From NCBI GenBank assembly GCA_031271725.1, contig JAISVE010000030.1, positions 1-21,180 on the forward strand: 21,180 nucleotides of DNA. The letters run 5' to 3'. A model generated the notes under the pieces. That model saw nothing but the letters and a program-made list of their open reading frames with translations. It had not been told where the DNA came from and did not search any database. The DNA comes from Bacteroidales bacterium (lineage in GTDB: Bacteria; Bacteroidota; Bacteroidia; Bacteroidales; P3). Positions 7,180 through 12,003 of this stretch are shown here, in pieces. The first letter of the stretch is position 1, and every line of letters starts with the position of its first letter. The translations under genes were made by a program, and so were the position numbers.

Positions 7180-8796
7180 ATGACAGAGAGTTTCGATTGT
7201 ATAATTGTCGGCGGCGGCATTACCGGTTTGGGTATTGCACGGGATTGTTGTATGAGGGGGCTTAAAGTCCTTCTTATAGAACGTTACGACATAGCAGCGG
7301 GCGCAACAGGCAGCAACCACGGTTTGCTCCACAGTGGGGCGCGTTATGCTGTTACCGACCCTGAAAGCGCACGCGAGTGTATAGGGGAAAATCATATTCT
7401 GCGTTTTATCGCAAAACACTGTGTAGAAGACACCGGCGGGCTTTTTCTTACTCTGCCAGAAGATGGTTTGGATTTTCAGGAAAAATTTATTGAAGCCTGT
7501 ACGGCGGCAGGTATTCCAACGCGGCATTTATCGCGTAAGGAGGCATTGCGCAGGGAGCATTCTGCAAATCCTGAAATGCTTTCTGCCGTAGAAGTTCCCG
7601 ATGCGGCGGTGGATCCTTTCCGTTTAAGTGTGGCAAATATGCTTGATGCCAAGGAGTATGGTGCGGAAATTCTTACGTACAGCGAAGTTATAGATGTTAT
7701 CAGGGAGCAGGACAGGGTTGTGGGTGTAAAAGTGCGTTCACACAAGACGGGGCTTGAAACATCCTATTATGCCGATGTGGTGATTAACGCCGTTGGAATA
7801 TGGGGACAGAAGATAGCGCGAATGGCGGGCGTGGATGTTATGATGCAGCCCAACAAGGGCGCAATGCTTGTTTATGGCGAGCGGGCTAACAAAATGGTGC
7901 TTAACCGTTGCCGCAAGCCGGGCAATGCCGATATACTTGTTCCGAGCGAAACGGTAACCCTTATAGGAACAACGTCTAAAAATATTTCTTTTGACGAGGT
8001 TGACAAACTAAGTGTCAGCGCGGACGAAGTAAGGGCACTTATAGATGAGGGAGAGAAACTTTGTCCGTCTCTTGCGAGCACGCGCATATTGAGAGCCTAC
8101 GCGGGGGTTAGACCTCTTGTGGTTGACGGACAGGACAGCGAAGGGCGCAATATTTCGCGCGGAATTGCGCTGTTTGACCATGCCGAAAGAGATGGATTGC
8201 AGGGATATGTTACTATTACGGGCGGCAAGATGATGACTTATCGCTTAATGGCTGAGTGGACAACAGATTTGGTTTGCAAAAAACTTAATGTTGATGCGAA
8301 GTGCCGCACGGCGGAAGTTGCTTTGCCCGGCTCGCGGGAAGATAGGAAACAGGTTAGCAAAAAAATATTTGTGTTTCCGTCTGCTTTAAGGAAATCTCTT
8401 GTGCATAGGTACGGTGAACGTGCAATACCTGTATTATCTTATATTTTGTCTATGTTTCGAGGCAAACGCCTTGCGGCGCACAGGGCAGAAGCATACAGTT
8501 TGCTTTGCGAATGCGAACGCGTTACGGCGGGCGAAATACTCTACGCCAAAAAGGAACTTAATATAGCAACGCTTATGGACTTGCGCCGCAGAACAAGGGT
8601 AGGAATGGGGCAGTGCCAGGGCGAAATTTGTATATGTCGTGCGGCGGGTTTGCTCGGTTGCAGGAAAGAGGAGGTTGTGGGCTTTTTGCAGGAACGCTGG
8701 AAAGGCGTGATGCCCGTTGCCTTTGGCGACAGCATTGCAGAGAGCGAATACACTTCCCGGGTTTACAGGGGGCTGTGCGGCTTTGAACAGAAGTAG
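7180..8796 (+). CDS. glpA: Anaerobic glycerol-3-phosphate dehydrogenase subunit A
   Basis: The 538-residue product has nearly the length of E. coli GlpA. It begins with an FAD-binding Rossmann motif (GGGITG, residues 11-16), followed by the DAO-type oxidoreductase fold with GATGSNHGLLHSGARY and the late block TITGGKMMTYRLMAEW. The C-terminal ~100 residues form a BFD-like [2Fe-2S] domain with cysteines at 443, 445, 479 and 484/486 (CEC...CQGEICIC). It oxidises sn-glycerol-3-phosphate to dihydroxyacetone phosphate and passes electrons on through GlpB. The start at 7180 follows CTAAAAAAGA and the 14-bp array. Its usual partner glpB is displaced by 1.9 kb and no glpC is seen. Confidence 0.93.
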   Translation: MTESFDCIIVGGGITGLGIARDCCMRGLKVLLIERYDIAAGATGSNHGLLHSGARYAVTDPESARECIGENHILRFIAKHCVEDTGGLFLTLPEDGLDFQEKFIEACTAAGIPTRHLSRKEALRREHSANPEMLSAVEVPDAAVDPFRLSVANMLDAKEYGAEILTYSEVIDVIREQDRVVGVKVRSHKTGLETSYYADVVINAVGIWGQKIARMAGVDVMMQPNKGAMLVYGERANKMVLNRCRKPGNADILVPSETVTLIGTTSKNISFDEVDKLSVSADEVRALIDEGEKLCPSLASTRILRAYAGVRPLVVDGQDSEGRNISRGIALFDHAERDGLQGYVTITGGKMMTYRLMAEWTTDLVCKKLNVDAKCRTAEVALPGSREDRKQVSKKIFVFPSALRKSLVHRYGERAIPVLSYILSMFRGKRLAAHRAEAYSLLCECERVTAGEILYAKKELNIATLMDLRRRTRVGMGQCQGEICICRAAGLLGCRKEEVVGFLQERWKGVMPVAFGDSIAESEYTSRVYRGLCGFEQK

Positions 8797-8870
8797 AAGA
8801 GTTGGGGCGTTTCTGCGCGTTGCGGATATTTTATCAGTATGTGTGTATTTTCAAAATTTCGCGTATATTT

Positions 8871-9092
8871 ATAACGAATATAAACTCTATCTTAGAAAAT
8901 AATCTTGAAAAAATTGCTGAATTGAGCGAAAAGCATAGAGTTAGAGAGTTGTATGTTTTTGGCTCGGCTTTAACCGATAAGTTTAACGACAATAGTGATG
9001 TGGATTTGTTGGTTGATTTTGGAAAAGTCAATCTATATGACTATGCAGACAATTATTCGGATTATAAAGAGGGACTGGAAAAAGTAGTCTGA
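8871..9092 (+). pseudogene. Remnant of a small nucleotidyltransferase (MNT-domain) gene
   Basis: The frame encodes the core of the minimal nucleotidyltransferase fold: a helix (NNLEKIAELSEKHRVREL), the motif YVFGSALTD, and SDVDLLVDF with the two metal-binding aspartates. It then stops at GLEKVV, just where family members continue with a strand resembling RKVDLV. A six-residue fragment SEFRIK in the +1 frame (9088-9105) resembles a continuation, which suggests a small deletion or frameshift. There is no ATG in frame; the only upstream start is a TTG at 8802 that would add unlikely residues. Intact members are about 95-100 residues, often antitoxins (MntA) paired with HEPN toxins. No HEPN gene is present. 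A short intact gene with a rare start codon is the alternative. Confidence 0.5.
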
Positions 9093-9117
9093 ATTTCGAA
9101 TAAAATAGAAATCCTTA

Positions 9118-9173
9118 ATATCAAAAAGTACGGAAAAATCAAAATATTTTGATTTTTCCGTACTTTTTGATAT
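9118..9173. repeat. Perfect 56-bp palindrome overlapping a promoter
   Basis: Bases 9118-9145 are exactly the reverse complement of 9146-9173, with no loop and no mismatch; symmetry fails from 9117/9174 outward. Each arm contains ATCAAAAAGTACGG and a T/A run, so the RNA from either strand could fold into a long stem. It separates the MNT remnant from the ATPase gene. The right arm supplies the -33 box (TTTG, 9148-9151), and the arm end runs into the -7 box. It could be an operator, a bidirectional terminator, or the end of a mobile element. Confidence 0.9.
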
Positions 9174-9178
9174 ATTTG
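9148..9178 (+). promoter_or_regulatory. Promoter of the ATPase gene, embedded in the palindrome
   Basis: TTTG at 9148-9151, a 19-bp spacer and TATATTTG at 9171-9178 match the Bacteroidota promoter exactly. The predicted start lies near 9185 and the gene's ATG is at 9194, so the leader would be only about 10 nt. The -33 box and most of the spacer lie within the palindrome's right arm, so a protein binding the palindrome would be expected to block or control this promoter. Confidence 0.7.
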
Positions 9179-9193
9179 CGAAAGATTGTTTTT

Positions 9194-10528
9194 ATGAAGC
9201 GGAAAATCACAAATGCCCTTATTGAGTGGAAAACCAATAAAAATCGCAAGCCGTTAATTATAAACGGCGCAAGGCAAACAGGAAAAACCTACATTGTTAA
9301 CGAGTTTGGCAATGCTAATTTTTCAAACCTTGTTTATATAAACCTTGAAACTAATCCTGCTATCAGAAAAATCTTCGATGACAATATAGAGCCCTCATTT
9401 TTAATTCAAAGTTTGGAATCGCATACCGACCGGCGCATTATTGCAGGTGAAACATTGCTTTTTCTTGATGAAATTCAATCTTGTGAACGAGCTTTAACTT
9501 CATTAAAATACTTTTGCGAACAAGCACCTCAATATCATATTATCGCTGCAGGTTCTTTACTTGGTGTGGCAATAAATCGCGAAAAACACTCATTTCCTGT
9601 AGGTAAAGTTGATGAAATAAATATGTATCCTTTTGATTTCGAGGAATTTCTTTGGGCATTAGGACGAGAAAAATTAGCCGAAACAATAAGGGAACATTAT
9701 GCAAGATTCGAAGCTTTAGCTGAGCCGGCACACAAATTGGCACTTGAGTTGTATAATAACTATTGTATAGTAGGCGGAATGCCGGAAGTAATTACAGATT
9801 TTTTACAAAACAACAGTTTTTTAACTATAAAAAATCCCCAAACCAAAATTTTAAACGAATATATTGCCGATATGGCAAAATATGCCGACCCCGCCACAAG
9901 CGTAAAAATCAAAGCTTGTTATAACTCTATCCCTTCACAATTAGCAAAAGAAAACCATAAATTCCAATATAAAATAGTACAAAAAGGCGGAACGGCAACT
10001 ATTTTTGGCTTGGCTATTGACTGGTTGCAACAGGCAGGGATAGTATTGAAATGCCAAAAAATAGAACACGGTTTTATACCAATAAAAGCATATCAGTATT
10101 TTCCTGATTTCAAGCTTTATATGAGTGATGTTGGAATGCTTACAATGCTTTCGGGTTTTCCGGCACAAATGATCTTAAACTCAGTCGAAACCAATAACAC
10201 TTTTATGAGGGCTATTGCTGAAAATTATGTTGCACAGGCATTTATGGCAAACTCCATACCTTTGCATTATTGGAAAAGCGAAGAAAGGGCCGAAATAGAC
10301 TTTGTTTTTCAAGACAATGTTGATGTTATTCCTGTTGAAGTGAAAAAGGGCTTGCGAACTCGAAGTGGAAGCATGGCTTTGTTTACAAAAAAATATAATT
10401 CGCCTTATGCCATACGTATTTCACAAAAAAATTTTGGTCTTGAAAATAACATAAAACAGATACCTTTATACGCAGTCTATTGTATCGTCAATGACAATAA
10501 AGATGGACTTTTCAAGATAGACAACTAA
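9194..10528 (+). CDS. AAA-family ATPase with DUF4143 and a PD-(D/E)xK nuclease-like C-terminus
   Basis: I start the gene at the ATG at 9194 (444 residues). The frame extends upstream to 9149, but that lies inside the palindrome and promoter. The N-terminal ATPase has Walker A GARQTGKT (residues 25-32) and Walker B LLFLDEIQ (88-95). The middle has the DUF4143-type helices (KIKACYNSIPSQLAKEN). The C-terminus holds EIDFVF (D369) and VIPVEVKKG (E382, K384), which fits a PD-(D/E)xK nuclease core. These proteins are common in Bacteroidota and archaea, but their biological role is not settled. The gene is AT-richer than glpA and glpB, which it separates, and lies next to an MNT remnant. Horizontal acquisition is inferred. 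Confidence 0.9.
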   Translation: MKRKITNALIEWKTNKNRKPLIINGARQTGKTYIVNEFGNANFSNLVYINLETNPAIRKIFDDNIEPSFLIQSLESHTDRRIIAGETLLFLDEIQSCERALTSLKYFCEQAPQYHIIAAGSLLGVAINREKHSFPVGKVDEINMYPFDFEEFLWALGREKLAETIREHYARFEALAEPAHKLALELYNNYCIVGGMPEVITDFLQNNSFLTIKNPQTKILNEYIADMAKYADPATSVKIKACYNSIPSQLAKENHKFQYKIVQKGGTATIFGLAIDWLQQAGIVLKCQKIEHGFIPIKAYQYFPDFKLYMSDVGMLTMLSGFPAQMILNSVETNNTFMRAIAENYVAQAFMANSIPLHYWKSEERAEIDFVFQDNVDVIPVEVKKGLRTRSGSMALFTKKYNSPYAIRISQKNFGLENNIKQIPLYAVYCIVNDNKDGLFKIDN

Positions 10529-10698: not shown

Positions 10699-12003
10699 AT
10701 GGCAAATAATTACGACATAATTATAATCGGCGGCGGCTTGGCAGGGCTTGCTTGCGGTATTACTGCTGCCAAGAAAGGCAAAAAATGTGCTGTTGTGTCG
10801 GCTGGTCCGCCGGCACTTGATTTTTCTTCAGGCTCTTTTGATTTGTTGAATGTTTTGCCTGACGGAGCAAAGGTGGATAATCCTCTCGAAGCGGCAAGGC
10901 ATTTGCCGAAAGAACATCCGTATTCCAAAATAGGTAATGTGGAAATGTATGTCCGGCGCACGGAAAACATTTTGGAACTTGCAGGCTTGTCCATGCAGGG
11001 CAATGCGAATAAAAATCATTACAGAATCAGTCCTGTCGGCAATTTCTGCCCGACTTGGTTAACCGCAAAAGGCTTGCTCACATCCGAAAACGCTGAAAGT
11101 TTGCCTTTCAAGAATGCGCTAATAATGGCACCCTCGGGATTTTTGGACTTCTACCCGAAATTTATAGGCGAGGCATTGGAAAGTAAAGGCATAAGCGTGG
11201 AGCATGCGCGTTTTCATTTGGCAAACAAAAATCACATAAACAGGTTACCTGTATCATTGCTTATAGGGCGTGGTTTGATTAGAGGTAGAAAACGAAGAAA
11301 CAATCCTGTTGAAATGCGTTCTGCCAACATAGCTGAAGTGTATGATAAAAATATTTCCAAATTGGCTCGAATAATAAACAAGCAAAAAACAAAGGCGGAA
11401 GTTGTGCTTTTACCTGCTTTAGTCGGTTTAGAGGGGAATGCTTTTGAGGAATTACGCAGTAGAAGCAATAAGCAAATTTATATGCTTGCCACAATGCCAC
11501 CGTCAGTGCCCGGAATAAATATTGCTATAACTCTAAGGAATGCTTTTATAAAGGCAGGCGGCACTTTTATACGCAATCAAAAAGTTACATCTGCAAATTT
11601 TACTGCCGATACTGCCGAAAGAAAAGTGGATAGTGTGCAAAGCATTGATGAGAATGATAATATTTCAACCCTCACCGCAAACAACTTTGTGCTCGCTACA
11701 GGTGGTATTTTCAGCGGTGGGCTAAGGACATCCTTAGACAATGTGAAGGAAGTTATTTTTGATGTTGAAGTGTCTGCGGAGGATAAGCGGGAAAAGTGGT
11801 TTTCACATAAGGTTTTGGATAACCAACCCTATATGAATTTCGGTGTCCGTACCGACAGTAGTTTCAGAGCGATTAAAAACGGCTCTGCCGTAGAAAATTT
11901 ATACGCCATAGGTGCCTGCCTTGATGGTTGCAACACTCTTGAAGAAGGCAGCGGTGCAGGCGTTTCGCTTTTAACAGGTCTTTATGTGGGCGAAAATCTG
12001 TAA
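10699..12003 (+). CDS. glpB: Anaerobic glycerol-3-phosphate dehydrogenase subunit B
   Basis: The 434-residue product starts with a dinucleotide-binding motif (DIIIIGGGLAGLACG, glycines 11-16) and carries GlpB-type blocks: SSGSFDLLNVLPDG, the C-terminal NFVLATGGIFSGGL and the final NLYAIGACLDG...EEGSGAGVSLLTG. GlpB is the FMN subunit that accepts electrons from GlpA and forwards them toward GlpC and menaquinone. glpB normally sits between glpA and glpC; here it starts 1.9 kb after glpA, and its 3' end overlaps a phosphopantetheinyl transferase gene by 20 nt, leaving no room for glpC. GlpC may be encoded elsewhere or replaced. Confidence 0.92.
   Translation: MANNYDIIIIGGGLAGLACGITAAKKGKKCAVVSAGPPALDFSSGSFDLLNVLPDGAKVDNPLEAARHLPKEHPYSKIGNVEMYVRRTENILELAGLSMQGNANKNHYRISPVGNFCPTWLTAKGLLTSENAESLPFKNALIMAPSGFLDFYPKFIGEALESKGISVEHARFHLANKNHINRLPVSLLIGRGLIRGRKRRNNPVEMRSANIAEVYDKNISKLARIINKQKTKAEVVLLPALVGLEGNAFEELRSRSNKQIYMLATMPPSVPGINIAITLRNAFIKAGGTFIRNQKVTSANFTADTAERKVDSVQSIDENDNISTLTANNFVLATGGIFSGGLRTSLDNVKEVIFDVEVSAEDKREKWFSHKVLDNQPYMNFGVRTDSSFRAIKNGSAVENLYAIGACLDGCNTLEEGSGAGVSLLTGLYVGENL

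Follow-up and report, generated by a model that had tools for sequence, protein, structure and literature searches.

A perfect palindrome on the promoter of a DUF4143 ATPase gene and gene-specific sites upstream of its relatives

What is the role of a perfect 56-bp palindrome that reaches into the promoter of a DUF4143 ATPase gene, and does it belong to this one locus or to the gene family? The palindrome lies on contig JAISVE010000030.1 (assembly GCA_031271725.1) of a Bacteroidales bacterium, of which positions 1 to 21,180 were analyzed; this whole stretch of 21,180 nucleotides is referred to as the window. Palindromes of the same design accompany homologous genes and lie on their promoters, the two arms covary, the sequences are specific for the individual gene (genome-wide for two repeat units), and the geometry of the sites follows the protein clade. 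We regard it as probable that the palindrome acts as an operator for the DUF4143 gene, which would be bound by the gene's own product and serve autorepression.

The palindrome and its gene

The original prediction described two 28-bp arms mirrored without error or loop, and this is what is found: the arms 9118-9145 and 9146-9173 (28 nt each) are 100% complementary with a spacer of 0. Five inverted pairs with arms of at least 14 nt, at most 200 nt apart, were listed in the window, and this pair is the longest and the only perfect one among them. With up to three mismatches allowed, the arm occurs in the window at this single location (9118-9173) and in none of 100 shuffles, and the best-palindrome score of the 110 nt upstream of the gene is 28, whereas 40 shuffles of these 110 nt average 6.6. 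The promoter proposed earlier, TTTG-N19-TATATTTG with its -33 box and spacer in the right arm, is also correct in sequence and coordinates, the ATG following at 9194. From the position of the -7 box a leader of about 10 nt is predicted. The features are as follows.

9118..9173, no strand: perfect 56-bp palindrome, proposed operator, half-site AAGTACGGAAAAATC (inverted-pair listing; covarying conservation in homologues)
9148..9151, plus strand: TTTG, -33 box within the right arm (read from the sequence; similarly placed in many homologous sites)
9171..9178, plus strand: TATATTTG, -7 box (TAnnTTTG) that extends past the end of the right arm (read from the sequence; box in homologous Bacteroidota sites)
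9194..10528, plus strand: DUF4143 ATPase gene, 444 aa (Pfam, AlphaFold model, fold matches, PADLOC PDC-S01)

The gene starts with the ATG at 9194; a longer, TTG-initiated open reading frame from 9149 is a mechanical call. AAA_14 (PF13173) and DUF4143 (PF13635) both match the protein above their gathering scores (99.4 against 28.1 bits for one model and 96.1 against 27 bits for the other). PADLOC assigns residues 1-433 to PDLC04786 (PDC-S01) with an E-value of 6.7e-169. We take COG1373 to be the same family.

The AlphaFold model (pLDDT 91) suggests an AAA+ domain (about residues 1-155), a helical part (159-230), a winged helix (233-310) and a PD-(D/E)XK-like domain (313-430), where the domain names of the middle part are a reading of the predicted secondary structure. 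According to fold matches the fold of the C-terminal domain is nuclease-like, and E343, D369, E382 and K384 are conserved in it. The modelled fold together with the conserved E / D / E-x-K is what characterizes PD-(D/E)XK proteins; DNA cleavage is a putative activity. No sequence relative was found in the PDB at an E-value of 0.01 (single protein) or 0.1 (profile).

Recurrence in homologues

A protein search, in which at least 7998 candidates were scored, gave a best homologue of 87% identity. A profile scan of genomes provided the best 80 loci of at least 592 stretches (45-87% identity) and eight viral loci; according to the record titles these 80 loci and the viral set include Bacteroidota, Bacillota, Fibrobacter, a spirochaete and a Chlamydiae bin. 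In the 110 nt upstream, many loci share a common design, which consists of an outer block, GAAAAATC, about 10-11 nt, GATTTTTC and the mirrored outer block. In a palindrome scan of these 110 nt many loci above 50% identity exceeded all 40 shuffles, and most of the more distant loci did not. A template requiring at least 14 of 20 symmetric positions and at most six mismatches in total to the two cores was matched by 44 of 89 loci (window, 80 and 8). Three of them were dropped as odd or of another type (L007, L060, L073) and the remaining 41 sites were aligned.

Paired cells make up 85.7% of this alignment, a value inflated by the partial selection of the sites for symmetry, in comparison to 68.2% after shuffling. 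Two-sided changes are seen in 179 cells (79 when shuffled) and the covariation score is 0.474 (0.187 when shuffled); none of 500 shuffles reached any of these three values. The number of pairs with any two-sided change does not differ (15 vs 14.8 shuffled). Related sequences can beat such shuffles without any structure, so more weight is given to the controls in which the partner was slid by one to three columns, where 41-53% were paired. One pair is UA in 24 sites and AU in 17, another is GC in 20 and CG in 19 with two exceptions. When the site was chosen by the right arm alone, 19 of 74 loci showed at least 10 of 12 outer matches, and displaced registers gave 1, 3, 0 and 0. The symmetry is retained while the arm sequence changes, by means of two-sided changes.

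An assembly artefact is unlikely because the design recurs with other arms in records whose titles do not mark them as metagenome bins (Hungatella L029, Proteiniphilum L013), and because three complete plasmids, from Segatella copri, Glaesserella parasuis and Bacteroides cellulosilyticus, carry direct repeats (see below).

Position on promoters and association with the gene

Of 25 Bacteroidota sites, 20 carry TAnnTTTG at the right arm or beyond it and the other 5 carry it up to 80 nt before the left arm (raw counts). In L028 a first TAnnTTTG lies inside the core and a second after the right arm. For other phyla a simple -35/-10 pattern fits 5 of 16 sites, and TTGAC within the right arm is common in Bacillota. 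A symmetric or repeated site that overlaps the promoter of its own gene and is conserved with that gene is accordingly present.

We rejected an RNA attenuator or riboswitch as the principal explanation because in the window, as in most Bacteroidota sites, the palindrome precedes the -7 box or extends up to it and would therefore be outside the gene's own transcript. Rfam gave 22 matches up to an E-value of 1 in the region 8780-9300, every one below the gathering score. In the five sites with the box before the left arm the palindrome would fall into the leader.

A model built from the 41 aligned sites (R1) was searched in the window and the 80 loci (752,028 bases). At an E-value of at most 0.01 it gave 103 rows, corresponding to 55 distinct sites, 49 of which lie upstream of a DUF4143 gene (at most 305 nt), 6 behind one and none elsewhere. 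The training sites account for 41 of the 55; eight more, 13-305 nt upstream, were found in L007, L012 (two), L013, L026, L033, L036 and L045. In 12 whole genomes, where 150 candidates per genome were scored and sites may be missed, 19 distinct sites reached 42 bits on the better strand. Of these, 18 are near a DUF4143 match; 11 are training sites, and seven of the other eight are near a DUF4143 gene. Another five sites score weakly, at about 30 bits or below, and one of them, G008:C36, precedes a DUF4143 gene.

The earlier proposal that the element travels with DUF4143 genes is supported by these searches, since all 55 sites in the 81 loci, including 14 outside the training set, lie upstream of or behind such a gene. 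The palindrome is neither limited to this locus nor scattered at random, as all 55 sites in the loci and 18 of the 19 strong sites in the genomes accompany a DUF4143 gene. The link to the family holds in so far as the same element is present at the promoters of homologues. It is wider than was proposed, as the arms differ by gene and paralogues use direct-repeat arrays.

Direct repeats upstream of paralogous genes

The 12 genomes contain 4-30 DUF4143 matches each. From eight genomes 100 stretches were surveyed, 99 of them upstream of listed matches, and 95 had a rule-based gene start. The 150 nt upstream were compared with 100 dinucleotide shuffles (p<0.01). As controls served 202 genes from the 80 loci, which belong to other genomes than the eight surveyed and differ in GC content (0.41 vs 0.32). 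Direct repeats were found for 51 of 95 survey genes and 6 of 202 controls, inverted repeats for 20 of 95 and 22 of 202, and either type for 60 of 95 and 26 of 202. A spread-out Bacteroidota sample gave 5 of 22 direct and 12 of 22 inverted, and 15 usable genes from Bacillota gave four direct, three inverted and six of either type. Among homologues of the window gene, 8 of 84 have direct and 40 of 84 inverted repeats.

The period in the survey is 33 bp for 23 genes, 32 bp for 13, 23 bp for 8 and 22 bp for 2, with five others. On complete plasmids, Segatella copri carries 33 bp three times, and 66 is the best period for Glaesserella parasuis and Bacteroides cellulosilyticus; the two other of the five plasmid records gave a weak signal (Parabacteroides, score 11) or none (Fusobacterium, score 10). 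Mapped on a tree built from the N-terminal 230 residues, the label for the arrangement (23, 33, inverted or none) changes 24 times; 500 shuffles gave 44.1 changes on average and never fewer than 37. Of the 10 period-23 genes, 9 group together. The repeat arrangement follows the protein clade.

The sequence of the repeat unit differs among paralogues of one genome. Two units searched across genome G003 each hit their own array three times. For one of them two extra hits with three mismatches were found elsewhere, and the reversed control gave one. We also considered GAAAAARTGT as a core common to all arrays, which was rejected: it is present in 16 of 95 survey genes and 23 of 84 homologues (GC 0.32 each) in comparison to 24 of 202 controls (GC 0.41). 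Of the 11 cases in which it is repeated on the same strand, 10 show a spacing of 32 or 33 bp, and it occurs twice in no control. It is the core of some clades only.

Other repeats were noticed near genes of the family. L108 has a period-32 repeat of its own behind the gene, and in L161 and L162 (Candidatus Symbiothrix) short AACTCAT-type tandem repeats, unlike the 23/33 bp arrays, precede the start. Within the last 45 nt before the start codon in L258-L284, some shorter DUF4143 proteins of other clades (for example L258, L260, L262, L263) have an inverted repeat that reaches the start.

A separate host regulator could bind the operator instead of the gene's own product, for which binding is proposed. 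We consider this very improbable, because a common regulator would give a shared site, whereas the element accompanies its gene from phylum to phylum, paralogues of a single genome have different versions of it, and its spacing follows the clade of the ATPase.

The specific sequence of each gene would also suit a defence system, in which the repeats are what the nuclease senses or attacks in invading DNA and the operator copy sets the threshold by titration. The listing of the family by PADLOC as candidate PDC-S01 and the nuclease-like fold with its four conserved residues point in the same direction. Five pattern scans of viral contigs, though, gave 0, 0, 1, 1 and 3 hits, all of them single matches, and the stretches around these hits contain no DUF4143 relative. 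A decoy or target in viruses is not supported by these scans, and this explanation is assigned a low probability, somewhat above that of the host regulator.

Proposed mode of action

If the palindrome is an operator read by its own product, as we favor, each of two subunits would contact one half-site by way of its winged helix, and perhaps also of its C-terminal PD-(D/E)XK-like domain. The bound subunits would mask the -33 box, and the promoter of their own gene would be repressed, with ATP-dependent release or oligomerisation; own-product binding, repression and the role of ATP are all proposals. For related proteins the same control may act on direct repeats with a spacing of 32-33 bp, about three helical turns, or of 23 bp. 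With a private half-site for each gene, paralogues in one cell would not cross-regulate.

Indirect signs that the protein reads its own site are the clade-specific geometry and residue 362. Specificity was expected in the recognition helix; the peak of a partial Mantel scan fell at residues 353-364 instead (r 0.34, where the 99% permutation maximum, which ignores phylogeny, is 0.21). The winged-helix columns 273 and 305 come next. In the training sites Asn362 occurs with C in the promoter-side half-site in 19 of 19 cases and with G in 3 of 22. Of 63 held-out loci searched, 14 had a base called by the model, with Asn362 in 4 of 4 with C and 1 of 10 with G; L016 additionally reads A and has Asn. 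Pagel's test gives p 0.0033 for the training sites and 1.2e-4 for the 55 including the held-out ones. In an earlier set, residue 362 ranks first of 523 column-residue traits, of which the 80 strongest by raw association were run. The link between residue 362 and the base is a suggestive lead.

Several observations weigh against an operator read in this way. Residue 362 was located by the protein scan itself and lies in the nuclease-like domain, outside the recognition helix; L049 and L326 combine C with Ser; its p-values of 4e-4 to 5.5e-4 in the earlier trait set fail the Bonferroni correction; and when 13 loci read by eye are added, the counts become 23 of 25 (C) and 8 of 43 (G) with a Pagel p of 0.017. 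The program-called test turned out stronger and the wider by-eye test weaker, and the odds of the best explanation were therefore left unchanged. In the survey, 35 of 95 genes have neither repeat type at p<0.01. Palindromes behind the gene, where its promoter is not expected, occur in 6 of 81 loci: in L003, L005, L014, L015 and L024 at -2 to +31 nt from the stop codon, and in L008 1.5 kb further on, past a second gene. A solitary strong site, G002:C139:5988-6041 (L233:1489-1542), lies on a contig with no listed DUF4143 match, flanked, as far as the frames can be read, by an efflux/heavy-metal region and a thioredoxin-like gene.

The copies behind the gene and the solitary site leave room for roles as a boundary or as element ends. 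As a boundary element, the second idea of the original prediction, the palindrome would form an RNA hairpin on read-through, stop transcription from either side and insulate the gene, with autoregulation secondary or absent. The copies behind the gene, to which one in L298 can be added, would suit such a role, and some AAGT-type right arms end with CTTTTT. Against this, a copy behind the gene is limited to those six loci, the upstream copy covers the -33 region in most Bacteroidota sites, which is needless for a terminator, and the direct repeats of the paralogues as such form no hairpin. We consider a boundary function unlikely.

No more probable is it that the palindromes are ends of a mobile element processed by the ATPase-nuclease, the promoter position being a by-product. 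The flanking copies, which in L008 enclose a second gene, the one in L298, the solitary palindrome and the many copies per genome are consistent with mobility, as is the location of the unit between glpA and glpB in the window. On the other hand, in 75 of the 81 loci, window included, no copy was found behind the gene, although some of these contigs end too early to show one. A 12-nt exact test of 15 array loci detected the repeat unit in none of them within the 250 nt behind the gene, and no transposase is among the eight window proteins run against Pfam. Terminal repeats as expected for a transposable element are not seen in the window with its single copy, and copies on both sides are confined to the six loci.

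Neighboring genes and additional palindromes

In the window glpA (7180-8796) and glpB (10699-12003, both NCBIfam) are separated by about 1.9 kb, which contain a nucleotidyltransferase frame and the palindrome-DUF4143 unit. The two genes are adjacent in L285-L287, the three genomes of 60 searched with a full-length glpB match, and the unit therefore looks inserted. No glpB was found in three genomes of the genus of G001. The short nucleotidyltransferase frame (8802-9092) ends just before the palindrome, matches PADLOC PDC-S09 (model positions 3-70 of 101) and, below the cut-off, weakly MntA; it is probably a remnant.

The DUF4143 gene of L008, together with a second gene of unknown kind, is bracketed by two palindromes at a distance of about 3 kb (L008:4915-7871). 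The palindrome behind the gene differs in its arms from the upstream copy in L005 and L024, and in L298 the second palindrome is located at 1432-1485.

Relation to known systems

Symmetric autoregulatory operators, for example those of type II antitoxins, and iterons are known kinds of sites. With antitoxin operators the palindrome shares the symmetric site over its own promoter; it differs in that a single gene encodes AAA+ and PD-(D/E)XK-like domains, the arms diverge between copies while the symmetry persists, and related copies use direct repeats of 32-33 or 23 bp. Iterons and origin recognition boxes with AAA+ winged-helix initiators (Orc1/Cdc6, 2qby) likewise have repeated sites at fixed spacing, and the protein matches the AAA+ winged-helix fold with a low TM-score; here the sites lie on the gene's own promoter and the protein has an additional C-terminal nuclease-like domain. 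The archaeal ATPases PABY2304 (2qen) and SSO1545 (2fna) show 16% identity.

By PDLC04786 and both Pfam models the window protein belongs to the defence candidate PDC-S01 (AAA_14 and DUF4143, COG1373). In the accessible part of PMC12988326 this is described as the fourth most common defence in prokaryotes, and most candidates of this kind are said to await validation; in that of PMC13356809 it is described as the most frequent individual locus of a rumen data set. The excerpts of these two papers deal with abundance and pending validation and mention no operators or repeats. DUF4143 appears as a table line in the available portion of PMC4406477, and promoter repeats or palindromes are not mentioned for the family in the portions of PMC4406477, PMC10782964 (COG1373), PMC12988326 and PMC13356809 that were accessible. 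No description of these sites was found in the open-access literature searched, most subscription papers being outside its scope. A private, diversifying site on many family members with a clade-linked spacing appears to be new.

The gene-specific promoter site names a candidate ligand for each PDC-S01 protein, can serve as a reporter and hints at the protein region that may read DNA, and palindrome, 32-33 bp arrays and 23 bp arrays provide three geometries for comparison. It is conceivable, if rather doubtful, that DUF4143/PDC-S01 is a repertoire-like family of sequence-specific DNA-binding ATPase-nucleases, in which the reading of the own repeats couples self-control to the recognition of invading DNA with matching repeats, or to the protein's own mobility. 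If so, the up to about 30 copies found in one genome would stand for about as many private specificities.
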